Source: Lachnospiraceae bacterium (lineage in GTDB: Bacteria; Bacillota; Clostridia; Lachnospirales; Lachnospiraceae). Taken from it: 12,513 nt of DNA. The DNA lies in NCBI GenBank assembly GCA_017437205.1, contig JAFSBP010000280.1:1-12513 (forward strand). Direction: 5' to 3'. Under the pieces are notes generated by a model that did not search any database, had not been told where the DNA came from, and worked only from the letters and a program-made list of their open reading frames with translations. This document shows positions 1 through 12,513 of the stretch, one piece after another. Position 1 is the first letter of the stretch. The number at the start of each line of letters is the position of its first letter. Position numbers and translations under genes: made by a program.

Positions 1-434
1 CAGTTATCTTCGACAAATCCGATAAAAAGGATGAGGCTTGGCAGTTCCTTGAGTGGTGGACTTCCGCGGAAACGCAGACCGAGTTCGGTACCCAGATGCA
101 GCTCCTTTACGGAGAAACCTACATGTGGAATACCGCAAACATGGAAGCTTTCGCAGAGATGCCTCTGGACGAAGGCGACAAAGAGATCATTATGGAGCAG
201 TGGGAGTGGCTGCACGAGATGGTCAAGACCCCTGCAAGCTACATGATCGAGCGCGAGCTCAGTAATGTATGGAACGCCATCGTGTTTGACGGCGAGAACG
301 CCCGAAGCGCACTGGATGACGCGGCGATCACCATGAATCAGGAGATCAAGCGTAAGATGGAAAGTATCGGCATGACTGAGTACCAGCTCCCGACCATTGA
401 GAAAATAGAAAGTTGGGTGAACGGAGATGAATAA
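1..434 (+). CDS. ABC transporter extracellular solute-binding protein, C-terminal part (5' end outside window)
   Basis: The reading frame is open from base 3 (first full codon) to the TAA at 432-434, giving 143 visible C-terminal residues; start, signal peptide and N-terminal lobe lie upstream. The segment [18 protein letters not shown] is typical of the C-terminal lobe of family 1 sugar-binding proteins, where such a helix follows a [14 protein letters not shown] stretch. A later helix ([18 protein letters not shown], then [16 protein letters not shown]) matches the usual C-terminal end of these binding proteins. It would sit outside the membrane and deliver a carbohydrate to the permeases just downstream. 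The stop codon overlaps the start of the first permease gene by 8 bases (ATGAATAA), so translation is probably coupled. The ligand cannot be read from this fragment. The family call is fairly firm; sugar specificity is inferred only from the neighbours. Confidence 0.85.
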
Positions 435-1329
435 AATTAAGAGTTGGGCAAAGAGGGAAGGTTCTGCGTACCTGTTCCTGGCACCGTATCTGATCCTGTT
501 TGTCCTGTTTATCATTATTCCTGTTGTCGCTGCAATCTATCTGTCCTTCACTAACTTTGACTCGGTAAACTTTCCTAAGTTCATCGGTCTGAAGAACTAC
601 ATCGCACTGCTCACCTCAGATGCGGTTTTCATGCAGTACGTTGTTCCGAATACACTGAAGTTCTCCCTGATTGCGGGACCTTTGGGATACGCGTTATCCT
701 TCATTATGGCTTGGATGCTGGCGCAGATTCAGCACAAGCCCAGAACCCTTCTTGCACTGATTCTGTACTCCCCTTCCATGACCTCCGGTGTGGCAATGGG
801 CGTTATCTGGAAGGTTCTCTTTAACGGAGACCAGAGCGGATATCTGAACAGTTTGCTGATGCAGTGGGGACTCATTACCGAGCCGATTCAGTGGCTGCAG
901 TCTACCGAGTATCTGATGCCGGTAATGATCATTGTTACCCTCTGGTCCAGTATGGGTGTAGGATTCCTATCCATTCTGGCAGGTATCCTGAATATCAACC
1001 AGGAAGTATATGAGGCCGGATACATTGACGGTATCAAGAACCGTTTCCAGGAGATCATTCACATTACGATCCCTTCCATGAAGCCTCAGATGCTGTTCGC
1101 AGCCGTTATGGCGGTAGTAAGTACCTTCCAGGCAGGTTCCATCGGTGTTACCCTGTCGGGAAGTAACCCCACACCGCAGTACGCCGGTCAGTTGGCGCTC
1201 AACCACATCGAGGACTATGGTTTCCTTCGTTACGAGATGGGTTATGCCAGCGCAATCTCCGTAGTACTGTTGGCGTTCATTTGGATCTGCTCCAAGGTAG
1301 TGACCAAGCTGTTGGCCGAGAAAGATTAA
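427..1329 (+). CDS. Carbohydrate ABC transporter permease, MalF/UgpA type
   Basis: This 300-residue membrane protein has about six hydrophobic segments; the first spans roughly residues 14-40 ([20 protein letters not shown]), as in MalF/UgpA-like permeases of the CUT1 family. The cytoplasmic coupling loop that contacts the ATPase is visible from E196 as [20 protein letters not shown] followed by P, an EAG variant of the EAA motif with the conserved DG and the terminal IP. It should form one half of a heterodimeric sugar channel with the next gene product. The ATG at 427 is preceded by GGTGA at 416-420 and overlaps the binding-protein stop by 8 bases. No ATPase gene is adjacent, so a shared ATPase encoded elsewhere is inferred. 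The family call is secure; the substrate is unknown. Confidence 0.95.
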
Positions 1330-1344
1330 AGGAGGAGGAAGAAC

Positions 1345-2217
1345 ATGGCATCTATTCAGGGAAAGAAGATGAATCCTACCAGATTCCACAAAAGCCAGCT
1401 GAAGTTCTATGCGATTCTGATTCCGATGGCTGTAGTGATGGGTCTGCCGATCATCTACATTTTTTCACAGGCGTTAAAACCGCTTGATGAGTTGTTTATT
1501 TATCCTCCGAAATTCTTCGCGCAGAAGCCTTCATTGGACAACTTCAAAAAGCTGATTGAGTCCATGCTTGGTTCGGAGGTTCCAATTTACCGTTACTTTT
1601 TCAACAGTATTCTGTCTACGCTGCTGACAGTAATCTGTACGATTTTTATCACCGCGTTTGCAGGATACGCTCTGTCCAAGAAAGATTTCAAGGCAAAGGG
1701 TCTGATCTTCGAGATCAATACCGCAGCACTGATGTTCGTCGGAGCAGCCGTAAAGATTCCGAAGTACCTGGTTATCTACTACAGCGGACTGATCGACAAT
1801 TTCTGGGTACATATTATCCCCGGCTTGGCGATGCCCGTAGGTCTGTTCCTTGTTAAGCAGTTCATGGATCAGATTCCCGATGCACTTATCGAGGCGGCGA
1901 GAATCGACGGTGCGAAAGACTTCCAGATTTTCATGAAGGTCATCATGCCTCTGAGTAAGTCCTCCCTTGCAACCGTTGTCATCCTGACCTTCCAGGCTGC
2001 ATGGAATGCCATCGAGGCCAGTGAGCTTTATCTGAATGCGGATAACATGAAGACCTTCGCATATTACATGACCACCCTGACAACCACAGGTAACGACGTC
2101 GTCGGTATCGGTCAGGCGGCCGCGGCGACGCTGATCATGTTTATACCGAACCTTGTAATCTTTATCTTCATGCAGAAGAACGTAATGAGCACCATGGCTC
2201 ATTCCGGTATTAAGTAA
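1345..2217 (+). CDS. Carbohydrate ABC transporter permease, MalG/UgpE type
   Basis: This 290-residue membrane protein is the partner of the preceding permease. The first transmembrane segment lies near residues 20-45 (FYAILIPMAVVMGLPIIYIF), followed by the periplasmic-type loop with LDELFIYPPKFFAQKPSLDN, a MalG-like feature in which a FxxPS/T..N stretch leads into the permease core. The coupling motif starts at E183 (EAARIDGAKDFQIFMKVIMP), a classical EAA loop with DG and a terminal MP. The ATG at 1345 follows a strong AGGAGGAGG site, and only 15 bases separate it from the upstream stop. The shadow frames on both strands look non-coding. Function as an inner-membrane sugar permease subunit is well supported; the transported sugar is not. 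Confidence 0.95.
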   Translation: MASIQGKKMNPTRFHKSQLKFYAILIPMAVVMGLPIIYIFSQALKPLDELFIYPPKFFAQKPSLDNFKKLIESMLGSEVPIYRYFFNSILSTLLTVICTIFITAFAGYALSKKDFKAKGLIFEINTAALMFVGAAVKIPKYLVIYYSGLIDNFWVHIIPGLAMPVGLFLVKQFMDQIPDALIEAARIDGAKDFQIFMKVIMPLSKSSLATVVILTFQAAWNAIEASELYLNADNMKTFAYYMTTLTTTGNDVVGIGQAAAATLIMFIPNLVIFIFMQKNVMSTMAHSGIK

Positions 2218-2233
2218 GGAGGAGGCGAGGGAT

Positions 2234-4264
2234 ATGAAGGGTATCAATAAGAAATTGGCAGTGGTTTTATGTTTGCTGCTGGTTGCCGTTATCTTTGGCG
2301 GCGATACGATTCGTGCTAACGCAGAGGCTCCTTATTACACATGGACACAGGGACCGGACGGCTACGTAGTACATACACAGACTGCTTATGAGCCGGGAAC
2401 CACGATCCGTGCGGATCTGAACGCTCCTCAGGATTTCTTCGTTTATCAGAACAAGATCTATGTTGCCGATACAGGAAACGGACGGATCGTTGTTTTGGAA
2501 AACAATGAGGTCACCCGGGTAATCACCAGTGACGAGATGAAAAGCCCTACCGGAATTGCGGTAAACGATGACTACATCTATGTTGCAGATTACGACAATG
2601 CATGTGTCCTGCTGTTCAATCACGACGGAACACTGTTTAGACGTATTGATAAGCCCACAGAGAAAACCTTGGGCGAAAAAACAAAATTTGCGCCGATAAA
2701 GGTCGGTGTGGACATGCGTGGAAATATCTACGTGGTATCTGAGGGTTCCTACTCCGGTCTGATGCAGATCAGTGAGGAAGGAAACTTCCTGGGATATTTC
2801 GGTGCTAACCGCACCAATACATCATTCATGATGATCCTGCAGAAGATGTTCTTTACTCAGGAGCAGATTGATAAGCTCTTTAAGAACACTCCCAGTAGCC
2901 CTGCAAATATTGCGGTTGACAGCATGGGTCTGATCTACACGGTAACACAGGGTGCGAATGCAGCCAGTCAGGGACAGACGATCAGAAAACTATCCATCTC
3001 CGGAACTGATCTGTTTAGCACCGGAGTCAACAGTACCACCTTTGTGGATGTTGCGGTTGACAAGGACATGAATGTTTATGCGATCGACGCAGACGGAACC
3101 TTCTACGAGTACGATAACTACGGTAACCTGGTATTCGCATTCGGAGGAAAGGACACCGAGACACAGAGAGTAGGTCTTTTGACCACCCCTGCTGCGATTG
3201 ATGTGCTGGATAACGGAGACTTGATTGCTTTGGATAAAAACAAAGGCATCATTCAGGTTTACGAGATCACCGATTTTGCTGCGGCAGTACATCAGGGTAA
3301 CTCCCTTTACTTAGACGGACGATATGAGGAGTCTGAGAAGACTTGGGAGTATATCAACAAGATGAACACCGCATTCCTGTTCTCCTATGAGGCACTTGGA
3401 AAGGCTGCCTTTAAGCGTCAGGATTATCAGGAGGCGATGGATTACTACAAGATGGCGGAGAATGTTACCGGATACTCACAGGCGTTCTGGTACTCCAGAA
3501 ATGACTGGATAGAGAATAATCTGGGAACCGTGATCGTTGTTCTTGCGGTAATCTGGTTGGTTTCTGCGATCGTGAAGAAGCTGGACAAGAAGAAAGTAAT
3601 CTCCACGAACGTAAAGAAGGTGAAGGAATCCATTACTTCGATTAAGATCGTCGATGAGTTCATGATCATGAAGATGATCTTAAAGAAGCCGTTCGACGCA
3701 TATTATGAGATCAGATATCAGAACAGAGTGGGTTGGCTCAGCGCGACGTTGCTCTATATCTGGCTGGGAGTACTTCAGATCACGAATCTGTATGTGACCA
3801 GCTACATCTTCAACCAGACCAATGTTGCATATGTCAACGTAGTGACACTGGTAGGATCTGTTCTCCTTCCTTTGCTGCTCTTTGTTGTCTGCAACTATCT
3901 GGTCAGCACTATCACCGAAGGTGAAGGTAAGTTCAAGCAGGTATACTGTGGAACGATCTATGCGATCTCCCCTTATCTGCTGTTTATGCTTCCCCTTCAG
4001 ATTTTGACCAACGTACTGACTCAGAATGAGGCATTTGTTTACTCCTTCGGTGTTCTGGTACTGGTTGCATGGTCTGCAATTTTACTGTACCTGATGATTC
4101 AGGAGATTCACTTCTTCTCCTTCAAGGGTACGATTAAGAATATTCTGGTGACGGCAGTGACCATGTTCCTGCTGGTGCTGGCAGTATTTATGTTGTATCT
4201 GCTGTTTACTCAGCTGAAAGACTTTGTCCTTGATATCATTCAGGAGGTGATCATCCGTGTATAA
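2234..4264 (+). CDS. NHL-type beta-propeller / TPR-like / Yip1-domain membrane protein
   Basis: A 676-residue multidomain protein. Residues 1-30 look like a signal peptide (hydrophobic core at 8-22, likely cleavage after ANA). Residues about 65-345 contain repeats of the NHL propeller kind: IYVADTGNGRIVVLE, YIYVADYDNACVLLFNHDG, NIYVVSEG, NVYAIDADGTFYEYD and LIALDKNKGIIQVYE. Residues about 350-410 form TPR-like helices (NSLYLDGRYEESEKTWEYI, then ALGKAAFKRQDYQEAMDYY). A transmembrane segment near 428-447 leads to a basic linker, then from about W501 a Yip1-type domain with about five further hydrophobic segments and the diagnostic stretch GKFKQVYCGTIYAISPYLLF. Predicted topology puts the propeller outside and the Yip1 part in the membrane. 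It has AGGAGGAGG at 2217-2225 and overlaps the next gene by 8 bases. It may sense or scaffold the transporter; no enzymatic motif is apparent. The domain calls are good, the role is unknown. Confidence 0.88.
   Translation: MKGINKKLAVVLCLLLVAVIFGGDTIRANAEAPYYTWTQGPDGYVVHTQTAYEPGTTIRADLNAPQDFFVYQNKIYVADTGNGRIVVLENNEVTRVITSDEMKSPTGIAVNDDYIYVADYDNACVLLFNHDGTLFRRIDKPTEKTLGEKTKFAPIKVGVDMRGNIYVVSEGSYSGLMQISEEGNFLGYFGANRTNTSFMMILQKMFFTQEQIDKLFKNTPSSPANIAVDSMGLIYTVTQGANAASQGQTIRKLSISGTDLFSTGVNSTTFVDVAVDKDMNVYAIDADGTFYEYDNYGNLVFAFGGKDTETQRVGLLTTPAAIDVLDNGDLIALDKNKGIIQVYEITDFAAAVHQGNSLYLDGRYEESEKTWEYINKMNTAFLFSYEALGKAAFKRQDYQEAMDYYKMAENVTGYSQAFWYSRNDWIENNLGTVIVVLAVIWLVSAIVKKLDKKKVISTNVKKVKESITSIKIVDEFMIMKMILKKPFDAYYEIRYQNRVGWLSATLLYIWLGVLQITNLYVTSYIFNQTNVAYVNVVTLVGSVLLPLLLFVVCNYLVSTITEGEGKFKQVYCGTIYAISPYLLFMLPLQILTNVLTQNEAFVYSFGVLVLVAWSAILLYLMIQEIHFFSFKGTIKNILVTAVTMFLLVLAVFMLYLLFTQLKDFVLDIIQEVIIRV
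4242..4250 (+). promoter_or_regulatory. Shine-Dalgarno site fixing a GTG start
   Basis: The full anti-16S-complementary string AGGAGGTGA ends 6 bases before GTG at 4257. It lies inside the 3' end of the Yip1-domain gene and supports the GTG start rather than the later TTG at 4266. Confidence 0.8.
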
Positions 4265-6548
4265 GTTGAACAAGATTTCTTTCAAAAAGACCGTTGCGAT
4301 TGTACTTGTTCTGGTTATGGTATGCGCGGCTTCCTCAGGACTGATTGCAATGGCAACAGAAGACGCTCCCAATGCTTGGCTTGCTGAGCTGACGGAGGGT
4401 GAAAATAAAGTAATTACCATGGAAAACTCCAGCACTCAGAAAGATGAGGAGTGGAGCGGAGATACCCCGTTTTCCGATAAACTCGCTGAGGGTATGGAGA
4501 AGGCAGCGGAAAACGAGAAGTTCACCCTGTATTATAATCCGAAGACCCTGGCAATCCAGGTAGTGGAGAAGGCGACCGGCTACGTGCATTCCTCCGTCGC
4601 AGAGGACGGAGAGAAGATCGAAGGCCTGAATAAGACCTGGACCGGAATGATGCAGTCCGGTGTTACTCTGGAACTTCGTGATTCAAAGGGTAAGGTTTCC
4701 ACCTGGCCGCTGACTACCAAAGAGGCGACAGTAGAGTCTACCATCCTTGGTTCAGGCTTTACCGCAACCGTTACCTGGCCTGAGGGCGTAGGCGTTGCGG
4801 TGGATGTAAAGCTGACTGACAAGGGAATTGATGTGAGTGTACCGTATGACGGAATTTGGGAGAAAGAAGGATGTAAGTATACGCTGCAGAGCATTTACCT
4901 GTTCCCCTTCATGGACGCAAACCGCGGACATTCCCAGAACGGATATATGTTCGTTCCCGATGGCTGTGGCGCTCTGATCAGAACCGGTGTGCAGAATCTT
5001 TCCACCGAGCCTTACCGCAAGCAGGTATACGGAAGTGATATCGGCCTCGGAAAGTTCAACGGAAAGGTTGAGCAGGGAATGTTGCTTCCCTCTGAGAATG
5101 TTTACATTCCTGTCTATGGAATGATCCAGAACATTGATAAGAACGGTCTTGCCGCAATTATCACCGAGGGCGATGAATACGCGCAGATTGAGGCGTATGC
5201 AAGCGGTATTACCACAGATTTTAACTTTATTACCGCCAAGTTTTTGGTACGTGAGGTTTATCAGATGAAGATGAGCCAGAGCGGAACCAGTGTTTCAAAG
5301 ACGCAGGAGGAGAGAAATAAGTTTGATATCGGTCTTTCCTACACCTTCCTGTCCGGCGATGATGCAAACTACGTCGGTATCGCAAATGCGTACAGAGATT
5401 ATCTGGTGGAGCAGGGTGCTCTGGCGATCTCTGAGAGCAAGGGAACAGATATTCCGCTTAAGCTGGAATTTATCGTTTCCGAGCAGAAGGATGGACTGGT
5501 GGGAACGTCCACCGTATCCATGACGACAGTAGAAGAACTGGATGAGATCCTGAAGGATCTGATGGACGAGGGTATCACCAATATCGAAGTGGTTCTGCGT
5601 GGTACAAGCAAGGAGGGTGCTACCGGTGTAGCTCCCACAGTATTCAACTTTAACAATAAGACCGGAACAAAGAAAGAGTGGACCGCTTTGATCGATAAGT
5701 ATCAGGCGCAGGGCGTAAACGTTTCTTTCTACTGTGACTTTACCAGAGGATACAATGGTGCGAAGGGATACTCCAATAAGGATAAGGCACAGAGCATCAG
5801 TAAAATTCTGCTGACGACTTACGATAACGGTCTGTTTACCTACCTCTCACCGAAATATACGGTAGATGCACTGGGAGAGTTTGCGGATTCGGCAGCGGGT
5901 ATCGGTGTAAATTCCCTGGCAGTTGACTGCCTTGGAAAATATCTGTATTCCAACTGGAACACCAAAGGTCTCTACACCAGAGGAGAGGCGAAGGAACTAT
6001 TTGAGGGTATAGAATTGAAGGATGCAAACCTTAGTCTGTACACTCCCAACGCATACCTGTACGGGCTGGCTGATGCAATCTACGACATGCCTACCTCTTC
6101 CAGCGGTTACTACATCTTTACCGATACGGTTCCTTTCCTGCAGATTCTGCTGAAAGGCTATATCGAGATGTATGGCAGCGGATTCAACTTCCACGCAAAT
6201 GCTGAGTCAGATCTTTTGAAGTGTCTCGAGTACGGACTCTATCCTTCCTTCTATCTGACGAAGGAGGAAACGATTGATCTGCTGGATACGAAATCTTCAT
6301 GGCTGTATACTTCCGAGTATGCGCTGTGGAAGGATTCCATTGTATCTGAGTATGCGAAGATGAATGATGCCCTTTCCAAGGTAGAGGGTGCGACCATCAC
6401 CGACCATGAGGTTCTTGCAACCGACGTGGTGCGCGTGGAGTACTCCAACGGAATCAGCCTTGTGATCAATCACAGTGACGCGGCATATTCCAACGGCAAG
6501 ATCAGCGTAGAGGCAAATAGTTATTTGCTGGCAGAAAGCGGGGATTGA
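4257..6548 (+). CDS. Secreted DUF5696-like protein, glycoside-hydrolase-like architecture
   Basis: A 763-residue protein starting at GTG with a perfect ribosome binding site. Residues 1-33 form a signal peptide (KK, then a VAIVLVLVMVCAAS core, cleavage probably after AMA); no good lipobox and no anchor motif are seen. Residues about 75-330 are beta-rich, with LYYNPKTLAIQVVEKATGY and a conserved-looking FVPDGCGALI at 232-241, resembling the sandwich domain before the barrel in GH101/GH129-type enzymes. From about residue 400 (LKLEFIVSEQKDG) the alternation of strands and helices suggests a TIM barrel, with acidic strand ends at D494 (VSFYCDFTRG) and D557 (NSLAVDCLGKYLYSN). A final beta domain (VVRVEYSNGISLVINHSD) ends in NSYLLAESGD. 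I recall this family as DUF5696, found next to Yip1-type proteins and CUT1 permeases. Glycosidase activity is inference; it could equally be a non-catalytic glycan binder. Confidence 0.8.
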   Translation: MYKLNKISFKKTVAIVLVLVMVCAASSGLIAMATEDAPNAWLAELTEGENKVITMENSSTQKDEEWSGDTPFSDKLAEGMEKAAENEKFTLYYNPKTLAIQVVEKATGYVHSSVAEDGEKIEGLNKTWTGMMQSGVTLELRDSKGKVSTWPLTTKEATVESTILGSGFTATVTWPEGVGVAVDVKLTDKGIDVSVPYDGIWEKEGCKYTLQSIYLFPFMDANRGHSQNGYMFVPDGCGALIRTGVQNLSTEPYRKQVYGSDIGLGKFNGKVEQGMLLPSENVYIPVYGMIQNIDKNGLAAIITEGDEYAQIEAYASGITTDFNFITAKFLVREVYQMKMSQSGTSVSKTQEERNKFDIGLSYTFLSGDDANYVGIANAYRDYLVEQGALAISESKGTDIPLKLEFIVSEQKDGLVGTSTVSMTTVEELDEILKDLMDEGITNIEVVLRGTSKEGATGVAPTVFNFNNKTGTKKEWTALIDKYQAQGVNVSFYCDFTRGYNGAKGYSNKDKAQSISKILLTTYDNGLFTYLSPKYTVDALGEFADSAAGIGVNSLAVDCLGKYLYSNWNTKGLYTRGEAKELFEGIELKDANLSLYTPNAYLYGLADAIYDMPTSSSGYYIFTDTVPFLQILLKGYIEMYGSGFNFHANAESDLLKCLEYGLYPSFYLTKEETIDLLDTKSSWLYTSEYALWKDSIVSEYAKMNDALSKVEGATITDHEVLATDVVRVEYSNGISLVINHSDAAYSNGKISVEANSYLLAESGD

Positions 6549-6549
6549 G

Positions 6550-7524
6550 ATGGATAAAAAGAAATTAACGAAATCTGCGAGAGACAGCATCAGAGGATGG
6601 ATGTTCGTTTCCGTATGGGTAATCGGTTTTCTCATTTTTACCATTTATCCGATCTTCCGAACCATAAAAATGAGTTTTGACTCAGTTATCATTTCCGCAA
6701 ATGGTTTGATTACCGAGTTTGTAGGATTTCTTAACTATCAGAATGCATTTCTTTCTGATGTAACTTTTACTAAGGCATTGATCCAGTACATCGGACAGAT
6801 CGTACTGGAGGTGCCGATCGCCGTGGTATTCTCTCTGCTGATCGCAATGGTGCTCAGCAAGGATATCAAGGGCAAAGGTCTGATGAGAACGGTATTTTTC
6901 CTTCCGGTTATCATTATCAGTGGTCCGGTTATGGAGAAATTCACAGACATGGGCCTGATGGCAATTCAGGGAACCCAGGACAGCAGTCTGATTGATAGTA
7001 TCATCATGATGCTTCCCGAAACCCTGGGTACGTTGCTCTCCACACTGATCGATTCTTTCGTCATGATCCTGTGGTTCTGCGGTGTACAGATTCTGCTACT
7101 GCTCTCTGCACTGCAGAAGATGGATAAGCCCATGTACGAGGCGGCACACATTGACGGTGCTTCCGCATGGGAGAGCTTCTGGCTGATCACTCTGCCAAAC
7201 CTTCGAACCATGATCGTTATCTGTATTGTTTACACGATCGTAACGATCTCCACCTTCGACACCAACCCGGTAATTTCGATGATTCAGGAAAATATGTTCT
7301 CCATCACCTCCGGTATGGGTTATGCTTCCGCGCAGGCCTGGGTATACTTCTTTACCCTGCTTTTGGTCATCGGCTTCTTCATGTTGATCTATGGACCGAA
7401 GAAGGCTAACTTGTACGGAAACAGCAAGGCGGTAAAACAGCAGATGAAGGAATACGAAAAGGTGATCCGCGATCAGAAGCGCGAGCAGAGAAAATTAAAG
7501 CGCACGGCAGGAAAGGAGGAGTGA
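6550..7524 (+). CDS. Carbohydrate ABC transporter permease, MalF/UgpA type (second pair)
   Basis: A 324-residue permease. TM1 lies at about 17-38 (GWMFVSVWVIGFLIFTIYPI), in the style of MalF/UgpA proteins, and the coupling loop begins at E197 (EAAHIDGASAWESFWLITLP). It differs clearly from the first MalF-type protein of the locus: it has a longer middle loop (TDMGLMAIQGTQDSSLIDS) and a highly charged C-terminal tail of about 40 residues after the last membrane segment (KEYEKVIRDQKREQRKLKR), so it is not a simple recent tandem copy. The ATG at 6550 comes one base after the TGA of the preceding gene (TGAGATG), implying translational coupling. No cognate binding-protein gene sits beside this pair within the window. 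The family call is secure; the substrate is unknown. Confidence 0.95.
   Translation: MDKKKLTKSARDSIRGWMFVSVWVIGFLIFTIYPIFRTIKMSFDSVIISANGLITEFVGFLNYQNAFLSDVTFTKALIQYIGQIVLEVPIAVVFSLLIAMVLSKDIKGKGLMRTVFFLPVIIISGPVMEKFTDMGLMAIQGTQDSSLIDSIIMMLPETLGTLLSTLIDSFVMILWFCGVQILLLLSALQKMDKPMYEAAHIDGASAWESFWLITLPNLRTMIVICIVYTIVTISTFDTNPVISMIQENMFSITSGMGYASAQAWVYFFTLLLVIGFFMLIYGPKKANLYGNSKAVKQQMKEYEKVIRDQKREQRKLKRTAGKEE
7513..7520 (+). promoter_or_regulatory. Shine-Dalgarno site deciding the start of the last permease
   Basis: AAGGAGGA ends directly against GTG 7521 but stands 6 bases before ATG 7527. The spacing favours the ATG, shortening the protein by two residues. Confidence 0.75.
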
Positions 7525-7526
7525 TC

Positions 7527-8411
7527 ATGCAAAAGAAAGCACAACGAATAGGCTATAATGTAATGATCTACGGTTTCGTGATCGTAATGGGCTTCGTGTT
7601 TGTATTTCCACTGCTGAAAATGATCAGTATGGGATTCATGACCTCCGATGATCTGGTTAACCCACTGGTAAACTGGATTCCCTACAGCTTCTCTACGGAA
7701 AACTATGAACGTGCGGTTCGTGTAATGGGTTACTGGAAGACCTTGGGTACGACTATTTTTGTCAGTGTAACCCCGGCTCTTTTGCAGACCTTTACCTGTA
7801 GCTTGGTGGGATACGGTTTTGCGAGATATAAGTTTAAAGGACAGAATATTTTGTTCGCGCTTGTACTGGCAACCTTCATTATCCCCAGCCAGATCACCAT
7901 GATCCCTCAGTACCTGATGTACAAGGATCTGAATCTGTTGGGAAGCGTAAACGCTTACCTGTTGCCCGCAATCTTCGGACAGGGCTTTAAGAGCTCAATC
8001 TTCATTCTGATCTTCTACAACTTCTACAAGCAGATGCCCGTATCTCTGATCGAGGCGGCTGAGGTAGACGGTGGTACGCAGATGAACGTGTTCTTCAACA
8101 TTGCGATTCCGATCGCAAAGCCCGGTTTCCTGATTAGCTTCCTGTTGTCTACCGTATGGTATTGGAATGAGACTTACCTTGGATCATTGTATTTCCAGGG
8201 AAAAATCAAGACCCTGCCGATTCAGCTGCAGGCGTTTGTTGAGTCCTTTAACAAACTGGTTGCATCTGAGGGCGCAAGCGGTGTGACCGCAAACGAGGCG
8301 GCACAGATGGCAGGTACTTTCCTCGTTATTGTTCCTCTGCTGATTCTTTATGCATTCACGCAGAAGTGGTTCGTAGAGGGTATCGATAAATCCGGTATCA
8401 CCGGCGAGTAA
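7527..8411 (+). CDS. Carbohydrate ABC transporter permease, MalG/UgpE type (second pair)
   Basis: A 294-residue permease counted from ATG 7527; an in-frame GTG at 7521 would add two residues but abuts the ribosome binding site. TM1 is near residues 8-34 (MIYGFVIVMGFVFVFPLLKM), followed by the MalG-like loop with TSDDLVNPLVNWIPYSFSTE, then SLVGYGFARYKFKGQN between membrane segments and the helix IIPSQITMIPQYLMYKDLNL typical of MalG/UgpE proteins. The coupling loop starts at E176 (EAAEVDGGTQMNVFFNIAIP). It partners the preceding permease; its start lies 2 bases beyond that gene's TGA (TGATCATG). It is the last gene before a strong stem-loop, which probably ends or limits the upstream transcript. 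Confidence 0.95.
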   Translation: MQKKAQRIGYNVMIYGFVIVMGFVFVFPLLKMISMGFMTSDDLVNPLVNWIPYSFSTENYERAVRVMGYWKTLGTTIFVSVTPALLQTFTCSLVGYGFARYKFKGQNILFALVLATFIIPSQITMIPQYLMYKDLNLLGSVNAYLLPAIFGQGFKSSIFILIFYNFYKQMPVSLIEAAEVDGGTQMNVFFNIAIPIAKPGFLISFLLSTVWYWNETYLGSLYFQGKIKTLPIQLQAFVESFNKLVASEGASGVTANEAAQMAGTFLVIVPLLILYAFTQKWFVEGIDKSGITGE

Positions 8412-8494: not shown

Positions 8495-8503
8495 ATGCAC
8501 GGC

Positions 8504-10912
8504 ATGGTTAAGCTTGAGGACAAGGCCCTGTGGATTAACGGCAAAAGAGAACTGATTGTCAGCGGCGAAATTCACTATTACCGTCTTGAGAAGTCTGAGT
8601 GGCAGGACCGGATCACGAAGCTAAAGCTTTCCGGCTGCAATGCGGTTGCGTCTTACATTCCCTGGATCTGCCATGAGGAGGAAGAGGGTGTTTTCGACCT
8701 GACCGGTTGGGAACGCGAGAACCTTGATGTGGCAGGATTTATTGATCTTTGTGCGGCAAATGATCTGTATTTTGTGGCACGTCCCGGTCCCTTTATCATG
8801 GCCGAGATGAAGAACGAGGGAATTCCCTACTGGGTGGAGGAGAATTACCCCGATTTGCGCTGTCCCACTTGGGAGGGCAGGAAGACACCCAACCCTACGT
8901 TGGATTATTTGGCACCGGATTTTCTTCGCTGTGTGGAAAAGTGGTACGCGAAGATCATGCCTGTGCTTGCGGATAGATTGATTGTAAATGGCGGCAATGT
9001 GATTGCCTGCCAGTTGGATAATGAGATTGGTATGCTCAGCTGGGTGGCCAACAGTCCGGATCTGTCGGATGTTGTGCTCCATGATTTCGAGGAGTGGCTG
9101 GGCAAAAGGTATTCTGCGGAGGAGTTGAACGGAAGATATCCATTCATGGGAGAAGCGTTTGAAGTCCGCAGAGAACATTATCAGAGACCGGAGGATGAAT
9201 ACGGTCTTAAGTATCATAAGGACTTGGGATATTACATGCGTGGCCGATACGCGCGCTATGTGGCTGAACTGAAAGCAATGGCGGAGAAGTACGGCGTGAA
9301 GGATATCCCTTTCCTCATCAATATTCACGGGACCGGGGGCGGAAGAGGACACACCTTCCCCATCGGGATCAGTCAGCTGATGGAGAGTTATACTCAGTCG
9401 CCTGACTATTTTGCCGGATCAGACATTTACCTGTCGGGTGTCACGATGGAGAACCTGCAGGATATCTATATTATTAACTGCTACATGGAGACGGTTAATC
9501 TGTCCACACACCCGCTGGGAAGCTTTGAGTTCCAGAGCGGATCCGCCGATTACGGTGAGACCGGAGCGGGCAGACTGGACGTATCCGACGCGGATTTTAC
9601 CGAGCGCATCTGCGCACTGCAGGGAAATGCACTCATCAACCATTACCTGTTCTGTGGCGGAAGAAATTATCTGTTGAAAAAACCGAGGCCTGATGGGAAC
9701 CACCGGATTGCAATCACCGGAGAGCGGCATGGATTTGCTGCACCGGTAAATCCGGAAGGGAAACTCGGCTACATGTTCCCACGGATGAAGCGGGCGAATA
9801 ATGTTTTAGTGGCTAATGGAGAGAAGCTTTTCGGCATGCGGGAGGAAAAATCCGGACTGTATATCGGTTTTATTCCGGACTATTTTATGACTGAGTACAG
9901 CTATACGCCGTTGGAGCGTGAGATGGTACAGAATGTATCCAGATGGCGCGCAGGTACCGGTTGGGACTGTTTTGCCAAGGCACTTCTCTTGAATCAGTAC
10001 AGTTTCGGCGGTATAAATCTGCAGGGAAACGGACCGCTGATCGATCAGGCAGACGCGATTTTTGTGTTGTCAGCGTCCTACATGCCGGAAGAGACACAGA
10101 CCCTTTTGAAAGAATTTGTGGAGAGCGGCGGAAAGCTGATCTTATACGGACGGCTCCCTGTCTTGGATATGGAGGGAAATTCCTGTCGAATTTTGGCGGA
10201 TATGCTTTCGGTGAAGAGCGAGACATTTATAACAGAAGGGGATCTTCGCTTTATGAGCGTTCAGCCGGTGGGAACGCTAGAGGGTTACGCAGAGGTGCGC
10301 ACCGGTTATGCAGAAGTTTATGAGGGCGATAATCTCACACCGCTGATGGAACTCTCGGTGAAGGGAGGCATCTGTGCCTTTGAAAAAAAGGTGAAAGCCG
10401 GATGTTCGGTGGTCATCGGCACGGACTATATCTGTCATCTGGAAGCGATCGAAAAGCTGATGAAGCATCTGGGTATTGAACACAAACTTTCTCACTCCTG
10501 TGAATATTATGGCATCATGATGGGAATGAGTAAGGACAGAGAAAATAAAGAAAAATTTTTGCACATTTTAAACCTTGATACCTTTACAAAGTCATGCCAG
10601 ATGTATTATAATGGCAACGTTTTGTTTGAGGGAAAAGAGATGTATCTGGGAAGCAGAGACGGATATATGCTTCCGATGAATCTGCGGTTGGGCGATTATG
10701 AGGTCAGATTTTCGACAGCGGAGATTCATTCCTGCCGGGAGAGTGAGATTGTATTCAGATTGACACAGCCGCAGGACGAAATCGTATTTGAGGGCGATGT
10801 TCCCGTGAGACATTCAGAGGATTATGACATTATACACGAGGATGGCAGAACCAAAATCATCAGTAAGATAGACGGAAGGATAGACGAGTTTCTTAACGTC
10901 GGTTTCGACTGA
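8504..10912 (+). CDS. Cytoplasmic GH35-type beta-galactosidase-like glycoside hydrolase
   Basis: An 802-residue protein (805 if ATG 8495 were used). The N-terminal barrel opens with WINGKRELIVSGEIHYYRL, the classic GH35 start, and carries RPGPFIMAEM from R93, close to the GH35 RPGPYICAEW signature. E174 in CQLDNEIG aligns with the acid/base of the usual QVENEYG motif, and E342 in GSFEFQSGSADYG is the likely nucleophile. A Rossmann- or GATase-like segment follows (QADAIFVLSASYMPEETQTL, then FVESGGKLILYG), as in larger beta-galactosidases, then beta-rich C-terminal domains. There is no signal peptide, so it should cleave imported oligosaccharides inside the cell. It departs from canonical GH35 in DNE for ENE and in a long insert rich in charged residues, so galactosidase specificity is not certain. 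It lies between the hairpin and the LacI gene. Confidence 0.85.
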   Translation: MVKLEDKALWINGKRELIVSGEIHYYRLEKSEWQDRITKLKLSGCNAVASYIPWICHEEEEGVFDLTGWERENLDVAGFIDLCAANDLYFVARPGPFIMAEMKNEGIPYWVEENYPDLRCPTWEGRKTPNPTLDYLAPDFLRCVEKWYAKIMPVLADRLIVNGGNVIACQLDNEIGMLSWVANSPDLSDVVLHDFEEWLGKRYSAEELNGRYPFMGEAFEVRREHYQRPEDEYGLKYHKDLGYYMRGRYARYVAELKAMAEKYGVKDIPFLINIHGTGGGRGHTFPIGISQLMESYTQSPDYFAGSDIYLSGVTMENLQDIYIINCYMETVNLSTHPLGSFEFQSGSADYGETGAGRLDVSDADFTERICALQGNALINHYLFCGGRNYLLKKPRPDGNHRIAITGERHGFAAPVNPEGKLGYMFPRMKRANNVLVANGEKLFGMREEKSGLYIGFIPDYFMTEYSYTPLEREMVQNVSRWRAGTGWDCFAKALLLNQYSFGGINLQGNGPLIDQADAIFVLSASYMPEETQTLLKEFVESGGKLILYGRLPVLDMEGNSCRILADMLSVKSETFITEGDLRFMSVQPVGTLEGYAEVRTGYAEVYEGDNLTPLMELSVKGGICAFEKKVKAGCSVVIGTDYICHLEAIEKLMKHLGIEHKLSHSCEYYGIMMGMSKDRENKEKFLHILNLDTFTKSCQMYYNGNVLFEGKEMYLGSRDGYMLPMNLRLGDYEVRFSTAEIHSCRESEIVFRLTQPQDEIVFEGDVPVRHSEDYDIIHEDGRTKIISKIDGRIDEFLNVGFD

Positions 10913-10940
10913 TTGAATTGCTGTCTGAGGCAAGAGAAAT

Positions 10941-10946
10941 GGGGAG
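10941..10946 (+). promoter_or_regulatory. Shine-Dalgarno site deciding the GTG start of the LacI gene
   Basis: GGGGAG stands 5 bases before GTG 10952, which opens MAVTIKDVAEAANVS, the normal N-terminus of the family. The longer in-frame option from TTG 10913 would add 13 unlike residues directly after the upstream stop. Confidence 0.6.
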
Positions 10947-10951
10947 ATACT

Positions 10952-11947
10952 GTGGCAGTAACAATTAAAGATGTGGCGGAGGCGGCAAACGTTTCCATCT
11001 CTGCGGTTTCCTACGCGATCAACAATTCCGGTCCGGTAAGCGAGGAAAAAAAAGAACGGATATTTAAGGCAGTGAAGGAACTGGGCTATGTGCAAAATGG
11101 CATGGCCAGAAGTCTTCGTCTGCAGAAAAAAGGTTTCATCGGATATTTTGCAAATTCCCTGTACGGAGCATTTTATGGTGAGGTGCTGAAAGGAATCGAG
11201 AAAGTATTTGACAATCATGATAAGGAACTGGTGGCGGGCAAATGCAACCCGTCGCAGGATGATCTTCAGGTGATTAGGCTGTTGACAGAGAAGATGACTG
11301 ATGGAGCAATCATTTTCTCGCCGTCAATCACCGATGAGACCATAAAGAAGCTGGCGGATGATGATTTTCCTATTGTTGTTCTGGACAGAGAACTGCACGG
11401 GAAAAATATTTCCAGTGTGTTGATTGACAATGCAGGCAGCGCGTACAAGGTGGGACAGTATATTTCTCATTTGGGGCTAAAGAAGATTGCTTGCTTTATC
11501 GGCGCCGGATTTGACGGAGAGCAGCGCCTTCGCGGAGTGAAAAAGGCCGTGGAAGAGTTTGGGCTGGAGCTGCCAAAAGAGTGGATCATGGACGGGAACT
11601 GGCTGGAGGAAGAGGCTTATGCAAAGACGATTCAGATGGTGAAGACCGGAAGGACACCGGAGGTGATTTTTGCCTTTAACGATGAGATGGCTAAGGGCTG
11701 TATGGATGCGTTAAAGGATATGCATATTCGCATTCCGGAGGATATCTCGGTGATTGGCATGGATGATATTCAGATCAGTGCCTTTCTGGAGCCGAAATTG
11801 ACGACCGTGCATCGTCCGTTATATGAGCTCGGTGTTGCAGCTGCGGAAACTTTGCTTCAGATGCTTGCGGGCGGCGAAAGTAAACAGATTGTACTTTCTA
11901 CCCGGCTGATTCAGCGGGAGAGCTGCATAAAACACTGGGTTGTGTGA
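10952..11947 (+). CDS. LacI-family transcriptional regulator
   Basis: A 331-residue regulator from GTG 10952. The N-terminal helix-turn-helix is plain: TIKDVAEAANVSISAVSYAI at residues 4-23, followed by NNSGPVSEEKKERIFKAVKE and the hinge stretch NGMARSLRLQKKGFIGYF. The recognition helix carries AVSYAIN where many members have TVSRVLN, so the operator may differ from the common one. The remainder is a periplasmic-binding-protein-like effector domain, with FAFNDEMAKGCMDAL, SVIGMDDIQISAFLEPKLTT and HRPLYELGVAAAETLLQML as typical C-terminal landmarks. It sits 39 bases after the GH35-like gene and 54 before the GH3 gene, so it is probably a local sugar-responsive repressor of this locus. The inducer is unknown, and no clear operator was found by eye in the short gaps. 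Confidence 0.93.
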   Translation: MAVTIKDVAEAANVSISAVSYAINNSGPVSEEKKERIFKAVKELGYVQNGMARSLRLQKKGFIGYFANSLYGAFYGEVLKGIEKVFDNHDKELVAGKCNPSQDDLQVIRLLTEKMTDGAIIFSPSITDETIKKLADDDFPIVVLDRELHGKNISSVLIDNAGSAYKVGQYISHLGLKKIACFIGAGFDGEQRLRGVKKAVEEFGLELPKEWIMDGNWLEEEAYAKTIQMVKTGRTPEVIFAFNDEMAKGCMDALKDMHIRIPEDISVIGMDDIQISAFLEPKLTTVHRPLYELGVAAAETLLQMLAGGESKQIVLSTRLIQRESCIKHWVV

Positions 11948-12001: not shown

Positions 12002-12513
12002 ATGGAAAAAAGAGACTTGCTGGAATTAATAAAAGAGATGAGCCTGAGCGAAAAGGCGATGCAGATGACGCAGTTGGCGGCAGGGCATATTTGCCACACA
12101 GCGCTTGCGAACCTTACCGGACCCTTCAGACAGTGGTCCTTTACCGATGAGGAGCTTGAACAGACCGGATCCATCCTGGGTTCTCACGGTGCTGAGTATG
12201 TGATGAAGATACAGAAGGACTATTTGGAAAAGTCCCGTCATAAGATTCCTTTGATGTTTATGCAGGATGTGATTCACGGATTTAAGACGATTTTTCCGAT
12301 TCCATTGGCACAAGGATGCAGCTTTGATCCGGAACTAATCGAGGAAGCGGCGTATGCGACGGCGAAGGAAGCGTCAGCGGCCGGAGTCCATGTAACTTTT
12401 TCCCCGATGGCGGATCTGGTGAGAGATCCCCGTTGGGGACGTGTGATGGAGTCCCCGGGCGAAGACCCTTATCTGGCAGGTGAGGTGGCTGCGGCGATGG
12501 TGCGCGGTTATCA
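12002..12513 (+). CDS. GH3 beta-glucosidase/beta-xylosidase, BglX type, N-terminal part (3' end outside window)
   Basis: The visible 170 codons start at ATG 12002, with GGGTGA at 11992-11997 as a modest ribosome binding site. The protein opens MEKRDLLELIKEMSLSEKAM, matching the usual LLxxMTLEEKxxQM beginning of GH3 enzymes. KIPLMFMQDVIHGFKTIFPI contains the substrate-binding Asp at D89, and DPRWGRVMESPGEDPYL from D142 is the hallmark of BglX-like family members. The nucleophile Asp and the C-terminal sandwich domain lie beyond the window. No signal peptide is seen, so intracellular hydrolysis of short beta-linked oligosaccharides is expected. Family membership is secure; the exact sugar (glucose, xylose or other) is not. 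Confidence 0.93.
   Translation, partial: MEKRDLLELIKEMSLSEKAMQMTQLAAGHICHTALANLTGPFRQWSFTDEELEQTGSILGSHGAEYVMKIQKDYLEKSRHKIPLMFMQDVIHGFKTIFPIPLAQGCSFDPELIEEAAYATAKEASAAGVHVTFSPMADLVRDPRWGRVMESPGEDPYLAGEVAAAMVRGY

Follow-up and report, generated by a model that had tools for sequence, protein, structure and literature searches.

A conserved seven-gene cassette with two CUT1-type permease pairs, an NHL-TPR-Yip1 membrane protein and a DUF5696 protein: a putative glycan-uptake machine

Contig JAFSBP010000280.1 of a Lachnospiraceae bacterium (assembly GCA_017437205.1), 12,513 nucleotides long and analysed here in its entirety as the window, corresponds to contig C258 of a source genome that amounts to 2.09 Mb in 472 contigs and is 70% complete. 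It opens with a run of seven genes, which we call the cassette: the C-terminus of a giant solute-binding protein (SBP), MalF- and MalG-type permeases (F1 and G1), an NHL-TPR-Yip1 membrane protein, a DUF5696 protein, and a second MalF- and MalG-type pair (F2 and G2). A glycoside hydrolase (GH) of family GH35, a LacI-family regulator and a GH3 enzyme follow. All seven cassette genes are on the + strand, at the positions given by an earlier note on this DNA, and they are indeed as tightly packed as that note had claimed (overlaps or gaps of at most 16 bases), the successive spacings being -8, 15, 16, -8, 1 and -4 bases, a range of -8 to +16.

The contig starts inside the first gene (3..434), so only a C-terminal piece of its product is in the window. 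Its description as a solute-binding protein stands, but what could be described was only the last 143 residues of a protein of about 985, in which the match to PF13416 (E 3e-4) is below the cut-off (21 vs 27 bits). The permeases of the first pair, F1 (427..1329, MalF/UgpA-type; PF00528, E 9e-10) and G1 (1345..2217, MalG/UgpE-type; PF00528, E 8e-12), both have an EAA loop, read in the sequence for F1. The fourth gene (2234..4264) encodes the NHL-TPR-Yip1 protein (NHL E 6e-11, TPR sub-threshold, Yip1 E 8e-13), and the fifth (4257..6548), described earlier as GH-like, secreted and DUF5696-like, proves to encode a member of DUF5696 itself (PF18952, E 6e-168, residues 165-756). The set closes with F2 (6550..7524; PF00528, E 6e-5, below the Pfam cut-off) and G2 (7521..8411; PF00528, E 3e-13).

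To judge how often these genes occur together, 398 genomes drawn evenly from across the phylum (the phylum sample) were searched. DUF5696 was matched at E <= 1e-3 in 46 of them. Strong matches (>= 480 bits) came from 37 genomes, the window's included, and from at least 56 places, since no more than three candidates were scored in any genome; the other nine genomes gave only weak partial matches. NHL-Yip1 proteins (E <= 1e-20) occurred in 38 of the 398 genomes, namely all 37 with strong DUF5696 matches plus one (G243) in which the match is a fragment at a contig end. The comparison took in 37 strong DUF5696 places (L038-L073 and L077) of the 55 that lie outside the window, three more (L074-L076) to which NHL-Yip1 led in relatives, and the best 80 among at least 561 relatives in named genomes, selected by their closeness to the query (the named set); with the window this made 121 sources, 97 of which had flanks sufficient for testing.

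NHL, Yip1 (fused or split), F2 and G2 were present in all 97 testable DUF5696 loci, F1 with G1 in 94, and the giant SBP in 93. The exact order SBP-F1-G1-NHL/Yip1-DUF5696-F2-G2 was found in 87. All ten non-canonical loci belong to the phylum sample, where 21 of 31 were canonical vs 64 of 64 in the query-close named set, and in one of the ten (L062) G1 reads as two pieces. Yip1 directly before and F2 directly after DUF5696 held for every testable locus of both sets (31/31 and 64/64). As controls, 40 other SBP loci were chosen by hand among the top SBP matches listed for 14 of the 20 cassette genomes searched; they had no NHL, Yip1, DUF5696 or giant SBP at the thresholds used, and their permease genes numbered two in 30 cases, four in 3, and none, one or three in 7. 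The neighbourhood is thus not random, and the seven genes are strongly conserved and co-inherited. The earlier note had proposed that both genes in the middle serve the importers as dedicated partners, and had offered random neighbourhoods of their homologues as grounds for giving the idea up; it survives that comparison, in 97 of 97 testable loci and with the same 37 genomes carrying both genes. The recurrence that it mentioned, in Lachnospiraceae and Paenibacillus-type genomes, holds true and extends further than supposed, the named loci (best 80 of at least 561) spanning Bacillota, Chloroflexota, Thermotogota, one Treponema and Acholeplasma-type bacteria. The canonical set is also on two annotated plasmids (of Paenibacillus cellulosilyticus and Butyrivibrio fibrisolvens) and one phage-labelled record, these being the three opened of four such matches.

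Permuted and partial loci show the cassette to consist of two modules: module A (giant SBP, F1, G1) and module B (NHL-Yip1, DUF5696, F2, G2). Module B precedes module A in five loci (L059, L065, L069, L070, L077), and in four (L047, L050, L051, L056) the giant SBP is absent from the stretch and is encoded elsewhere in the same genome. Three of these four (L047, L050, L051) have module B together with a nearby SBP-type gene, and neither a giant SBP nor F1/G1 within 20 kb; a pectate lyase gene comes after module B in L047, and the SBP-type candidate of L051 is without a Pfam match.

The window's SBP piece is 66% identical to residues 836-985 of the 985-residue giant SBP of locus L121, its best match, and it matches 95 of 95 giant SBPs and none of 64 small ones; no further piece of the protein was found in the source genome. 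All 37 genomes that have the cassette also have a giant SBP, which contig ends truncate in G000 and G103. Two further genomes, G104 and G154, have the gene at full length, each on a contig that stops partway through the F1 gene that follows; beyond these there is just G080, in which F1 and G1 adjoin a copy truncated at the edge of a contig. Five genomes of one family (G007, G054, G093, G127, G157; L209-L213) have the SBP part only, in frames of about 430-470 residues that are close kin of the giant SBP's C-terminal domain, and no cassette permeases were seen near them in the one region opened per genome. In G078 an ordinary 440-residue SBP accompanies F1/G1-type permeases, without module B. 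In the five giant SBPs that were scanned, the SBP domain, C-terminal from about residue 575, is the one Pfam match over the cut-off, and the first 550 or so residues match no family at that level. This N-terminal part (e.g. in the L121 gene, 3092-6046) is conserved, with one sub-threshold golvesin-like match. A simple lipobox pattern was found in 3 of 95 giant SBPs vs 50 of 64 small ones; in the control loci, as a rough yardstick, 20 of the 39 central frames carry it.

Most loci also encode a small SBP. At least one extra small SBP was detected by an iterated profile in 78 of 88 full-length loci (28/33 in the phylum sample, 50/55 in the named set), and 28 of the 56 genes scanned directly upstream of cassettes match SBP_bac_1. 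In L121 a small SBP gene lies directly upstream of the giant one; since the window's contig begins inside the giant SBP gene, no small SBP is visible there, and a counterpart would lie beyond the contig end. The suggestion in the earlier note that two channels might be coupled to one binding site does not fit these extra SBPs, L121 included. We had ourselves considered that F2/G2 might be without an SBP of their own and use DUF5696 instead, an idea that was dropped once the extra SBPs turned up.

CUT1 carbohydrate importers of the ATP-binding cassette (ABC) type work with a shared ATPase of the MsmX/MsmK type. The cassette has the marks of this family, in MalF/MalG-type permeases with EAA loops and a dedicated SBP. 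A strict EAA-loop pattern was found in 96 of 100 F1, 89 of 94 G1, 59 of 100 F2 and 82 of 106 G2 proteins, and a loose one in 99, 92, 89 and 88, respectively, compared with 0 (strict) and 1 (loose) among 401 shuffled controls. F1 and F2 are only 27% identical, and G1 and G2 only 21%, so neither pair is a recent copy of the other. No MalK/MsmX-type ATPase gene is present in the window. Among the 121 sources a UgpC-type gene was near two, with one weaker match besides; 1 of the 56 upstream genes matches ABC_tran, and a UgpC gene is upstream of the cassette on the Paenibacillus cellulosilyticus plasmid (L160). The source genome has two MalK-type ATPase genes. One, on contig C58, encodes a protein 59% identical to the UgpC beside the P. 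cellulosilyticus cassette; the other, on C121, is of a second type and adjoins permease genes.

The NHL-TPR-Yip1 protein begins with a hydrophobic segment, followed by an NHL propeller (residues ~36-346), TPR helices (347-410), a membrane helix and the Yip1 domain (~482-675). The match to the latter (PF04893) scores 49 bits against a cut-off of 28.6, and the C-terminal domain is helical in the model. A propeller fold is predicted for the NHL part, and fold searches with the protein list propellers, the Yip1 part being barely covered. In such literature as was found, as far as it could be consulted, the Yip1 domain is treated mainly in connection with eukaryotic membrane traffic, and a survey of titles gave none that fitted a combination of Yip1 or NHL with importers.

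The DUF5696 protein has an N-terminal hydrophobic segment, a beta domain, a barrel and a C-terminal beta domain (predicted local distance difference test score, pLDDT, 89). Over its whole length the predicted fold is that of GH129 glycosidases, with weak profile similarity as well. Only PF18952 matches the protein at E <= 0.01, the Pfam family Glyco_hydro_129 (PF11308) thus being absent; a search with PF11308 itself gave no match anywhere, controls included, and is hence uninformative. In the profile alignment used to map the GH129 nucleophile, the alignment ends before that residue. As far as the comparison went, no catalytic pair is conserved across the DUF5696 family, and we read the protein as a probable pseudo-glycosidase. 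A literature search found no paper naming DUF5696 or PF18952.

What the system may import is best approached through the neighbouring enzymes. The window's GH35/GLMA-type enzyme (8495..10912, +; no signal peptide evident by eye) has as its nearest solved relative the 1,2-beta-glucosyltransferase IaSGT (7vkw), to which it aligns over 12-696 (E 5.5e-62). The acid/base and nucleophile Glu residues of IaSGT, as named in the part of the source that was available (PMC8861115), both align with Glu in the window's protein, as expected of an IaSGT-type enzyme. The GH3 gene (12002..12513, +; PF00933, E 2e-22) is represented by its N-terminus, being cut by the contig end. No GH144 endo-beta-1,2-glucanase is encoded in the window itself. 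On contig C102 of the source genome (L206, 2947-6047), two PF10091 genes in a row have XcSGL as their nearest relative (E 2e-62 and 1e-57), which the accessible part of its description gives as a GH144 beta-1,2-glucanase (PMC12102758). The two genes come after the C-terminal piece of a GH3-type gene, located where the contig ends, and may continue the window's operon. The window's near relatives carry GH144, SOGP, GH35 or GH3 genes. To judge from these sequences, the cargo in the source genome is probably a beta-1,2-glucan or beta-1,2-glucooligosaccharide.

Beta-glucan enzymes flank 52 of the 80 named loci, 6 of 37 phylum-sample loci and 5 of 40 controls; on the latter two figures we gave up the notion of a beta-glucan system throughout the family. 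Further from the window the neighbours change, with GH16 in 14 of the 80 named loci. In the phylum sample, where the scan covered 73 of 88 selected neighbours from 25 of 37 loci, the neighbours included GH26, GH28, pectate, alginate and chondroitin lyases, GH10, GH43 and fucosidase. Since the enzymes vary between loci, the cassette looks like a general glycan-uptake chassis. On the P. cellulosilyticus plasmid (L160, 16381-26259) the canonical cassette is followed by several LLM-class flavin oxidoreductase genes and two extra SBP genes, with no glycosidases, which may point to an unusual cargo or one other than a glycan.

We lean towards the view, which we rate as marginally likelier to be right than wrong, that the seven genes would specify one co-inherited glycan-uptake machine comprising two CUT1-type importers, a membrane scaffold and a DUF5696 pseudo-glycosidase. 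In module A, the giant SBP, which lacks a lipobox, would serve F1/G1; in module B, F2/G2 would operate with NHL-TPR-Yip1, DUF5696 and a small SBP of their own, usually a lipoprotein, whose gene is close by in most loci. The Yip1 domain would anchor its protein in the membrane with propeller and TPR helices facing outside, forming a platform that might hold both DUF5696 and the giant SBP next to the permeases, and DUF5696 would grip glycan chains and pass them on. Both permease pairs would be powered by a shared MsmX-type ATPase encoded elsewhere. Imported beta-1,2-glucooligosaccharide would then be processed by the GH35 and GH3 enzymes in the window's host, with other cargoes in other hosts. 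Several points weigh against so unified a picture. What we observe is co-inheritance, gene order, the two modules, domain content and predicted folds, whereas we infer the protein contacts, the cargo and the part that the middle proteins play in transport; no extra SBP was detected by profile in 10 of the 88 full-length loci, and one that is counted in a locus need not belong to the cassette. The beta-glucan cargo applies only to the window's nearer relatives, given the phylum-sample and control rates above. The C58 ATPase gene, itself cut by the contig end, has no adjoining importer genes by eye on its visible side. Finally, distance correlations do not single out a complex, since whichever gene was tried gave high values, the small SBP (0.81-0.92) and a GH144-type enzyme (0.82-0.85) among them.

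It is possible, if rather unlikely, that the cassette comprises merely two separate importers sharing an operon for co-regulation, one made up of F1/G1 and the giant SBP and the other of F2/G2 and a small SBP, with NHL-Yip1 and DUF5696 belonging to the second alone. Module B without a nearby giant SBP (4 of 97 loci) or permuted relative to module A (5 of 97), the extra SBPs within most loci and the retention of EAA loops by both pairs would all suit such an arrangement, but the near-invariant order, and a giant SBP in every one of the 37 genomes with the cassette, go beyond what co-regulation needs. It is unlikely, in our estimation, that DUF5696, in the window's subgroup if not more widely, is an active GH129-type glycosidase that trims glycans at the surface ahead of their import, with NHL-Yip1 as its membrane anchor. 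Acids are well conserved among the nearer relatives (n=63: D235 63/63, E658 63/63, E409 62/63 and D623 58/63, scored as D or E), which makes catalysis in that subgroup still possible, if doubtful, and counts against a pseudo-glycosidase there. In a broader set (n=20) D235 is kept in 18 and E658 in 20, but E409 in only 3 and D623 in 14; moreover residue 557, placed by offset only near GH129 Asp435 (NagBb) and Asp486 (DagB), is D in 34 of 63 nearer and 2 of 20 broader relatives. That NHL-Yip1 and DUF5696 handle no cargo and instead sense extracellular glycan, gating the permeases or a regulator, seems to us quite improbable: an extracellular propeller joined to a membrane domain is a receptor-like build, but the cassette is without a kinase or anti-sigma partner, and nearby regulators differ between loci.

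SusC/SusD systems are the glycan importers of Bacteroidota. They resemble the cassette in that the uptake core is conserved and the enzymes encoded around it vary with the glycan, by analogy only, as the proteins and the energy source are different. A bolder form of the one-machine reading, tentative and a little less probable than two separate importers, is that both permease pairs, the giant SBP, NHL-Yip1 and DUF5696 might form one standing complex, a multi-phylum and mostly single-membrane counterpart of SusCD, which would capture long glycan chains and feed them to paired ABC channels while exchangeable small SBPs and enzymes set the substrate.

Among better-known systems, CUT1 importers share with the cassette their permease pairs with EAA loops, SBP_bac_1 binding proteins and an ATPase rarely encoded in the cassette locus; they differ from it in that it has two permease pairs, a giant SBP and two extra dedicated proteins. 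The GH129-type glycosidases NagBb and DagB/ZGAL_3152 (the latter a protein that its authors would assign to a new family; PMC5698469) resemble DUF5696 in predicted whole-length fold and weakly in profile, whereas DUF5696 has no family-wide catalytic pair as far as compared, and adjoins permeases. The beta-1,2-glucan clusters (SOGP in Listeria innocua; IaSGT in Ignavibacterium album, PMC8861115) have in common with the window an IaSGT-type GH35 and a GH3, and with its source genome the GH144-type genes. The Listeria binding protein Lin1841 is among the matches of a giant SBP related to the window's. In contrast, the part of PMC8861115 that was available describes an ABC transporter but neither an NHL-Yip1 nor a DUF5696 protein.

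If the one-machine reading is true, widespread glycan importers have at least two constant parts without an assigned function, NHL-TPR-Yip1 and a GH129-fold protein of doubtful active site. The annotation of polysaccharide-utilization loci in Bacillota, Chloroflexota and Thermotogota would then change, the Yip1 domain would have a bacterial role, and there would be a testable answer to how single-membrane bacteria import long oligosaccharides. Named strains suitable for such tests are Fictibacillus nanhaiensis (L085), Sutcliffiella horikoshii (L087), Butyrivibrio fibrisolvens (L161) and Paenibacillus cellulosilyticus (L160).

As to the remaining features of the window, promoter-like and terminator-like sites were in no excess over shuffled sequences, and an Rfam scan gave no family at gathering score. 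The LacI-family regulator gene lies between the GH35 and GH3 genes (10913..11947, +, counted from the first TTG, the start being uncertain; PF00356 and PF13377, scanned from 10943). Lastly, the phage-labelled record mentioned above, MT835600.1 (L162), a faecal entry given as Bacteriophage sp. and unverified, has the full canonical cassette and a small SBP gene, and looks like bacterial DNA.

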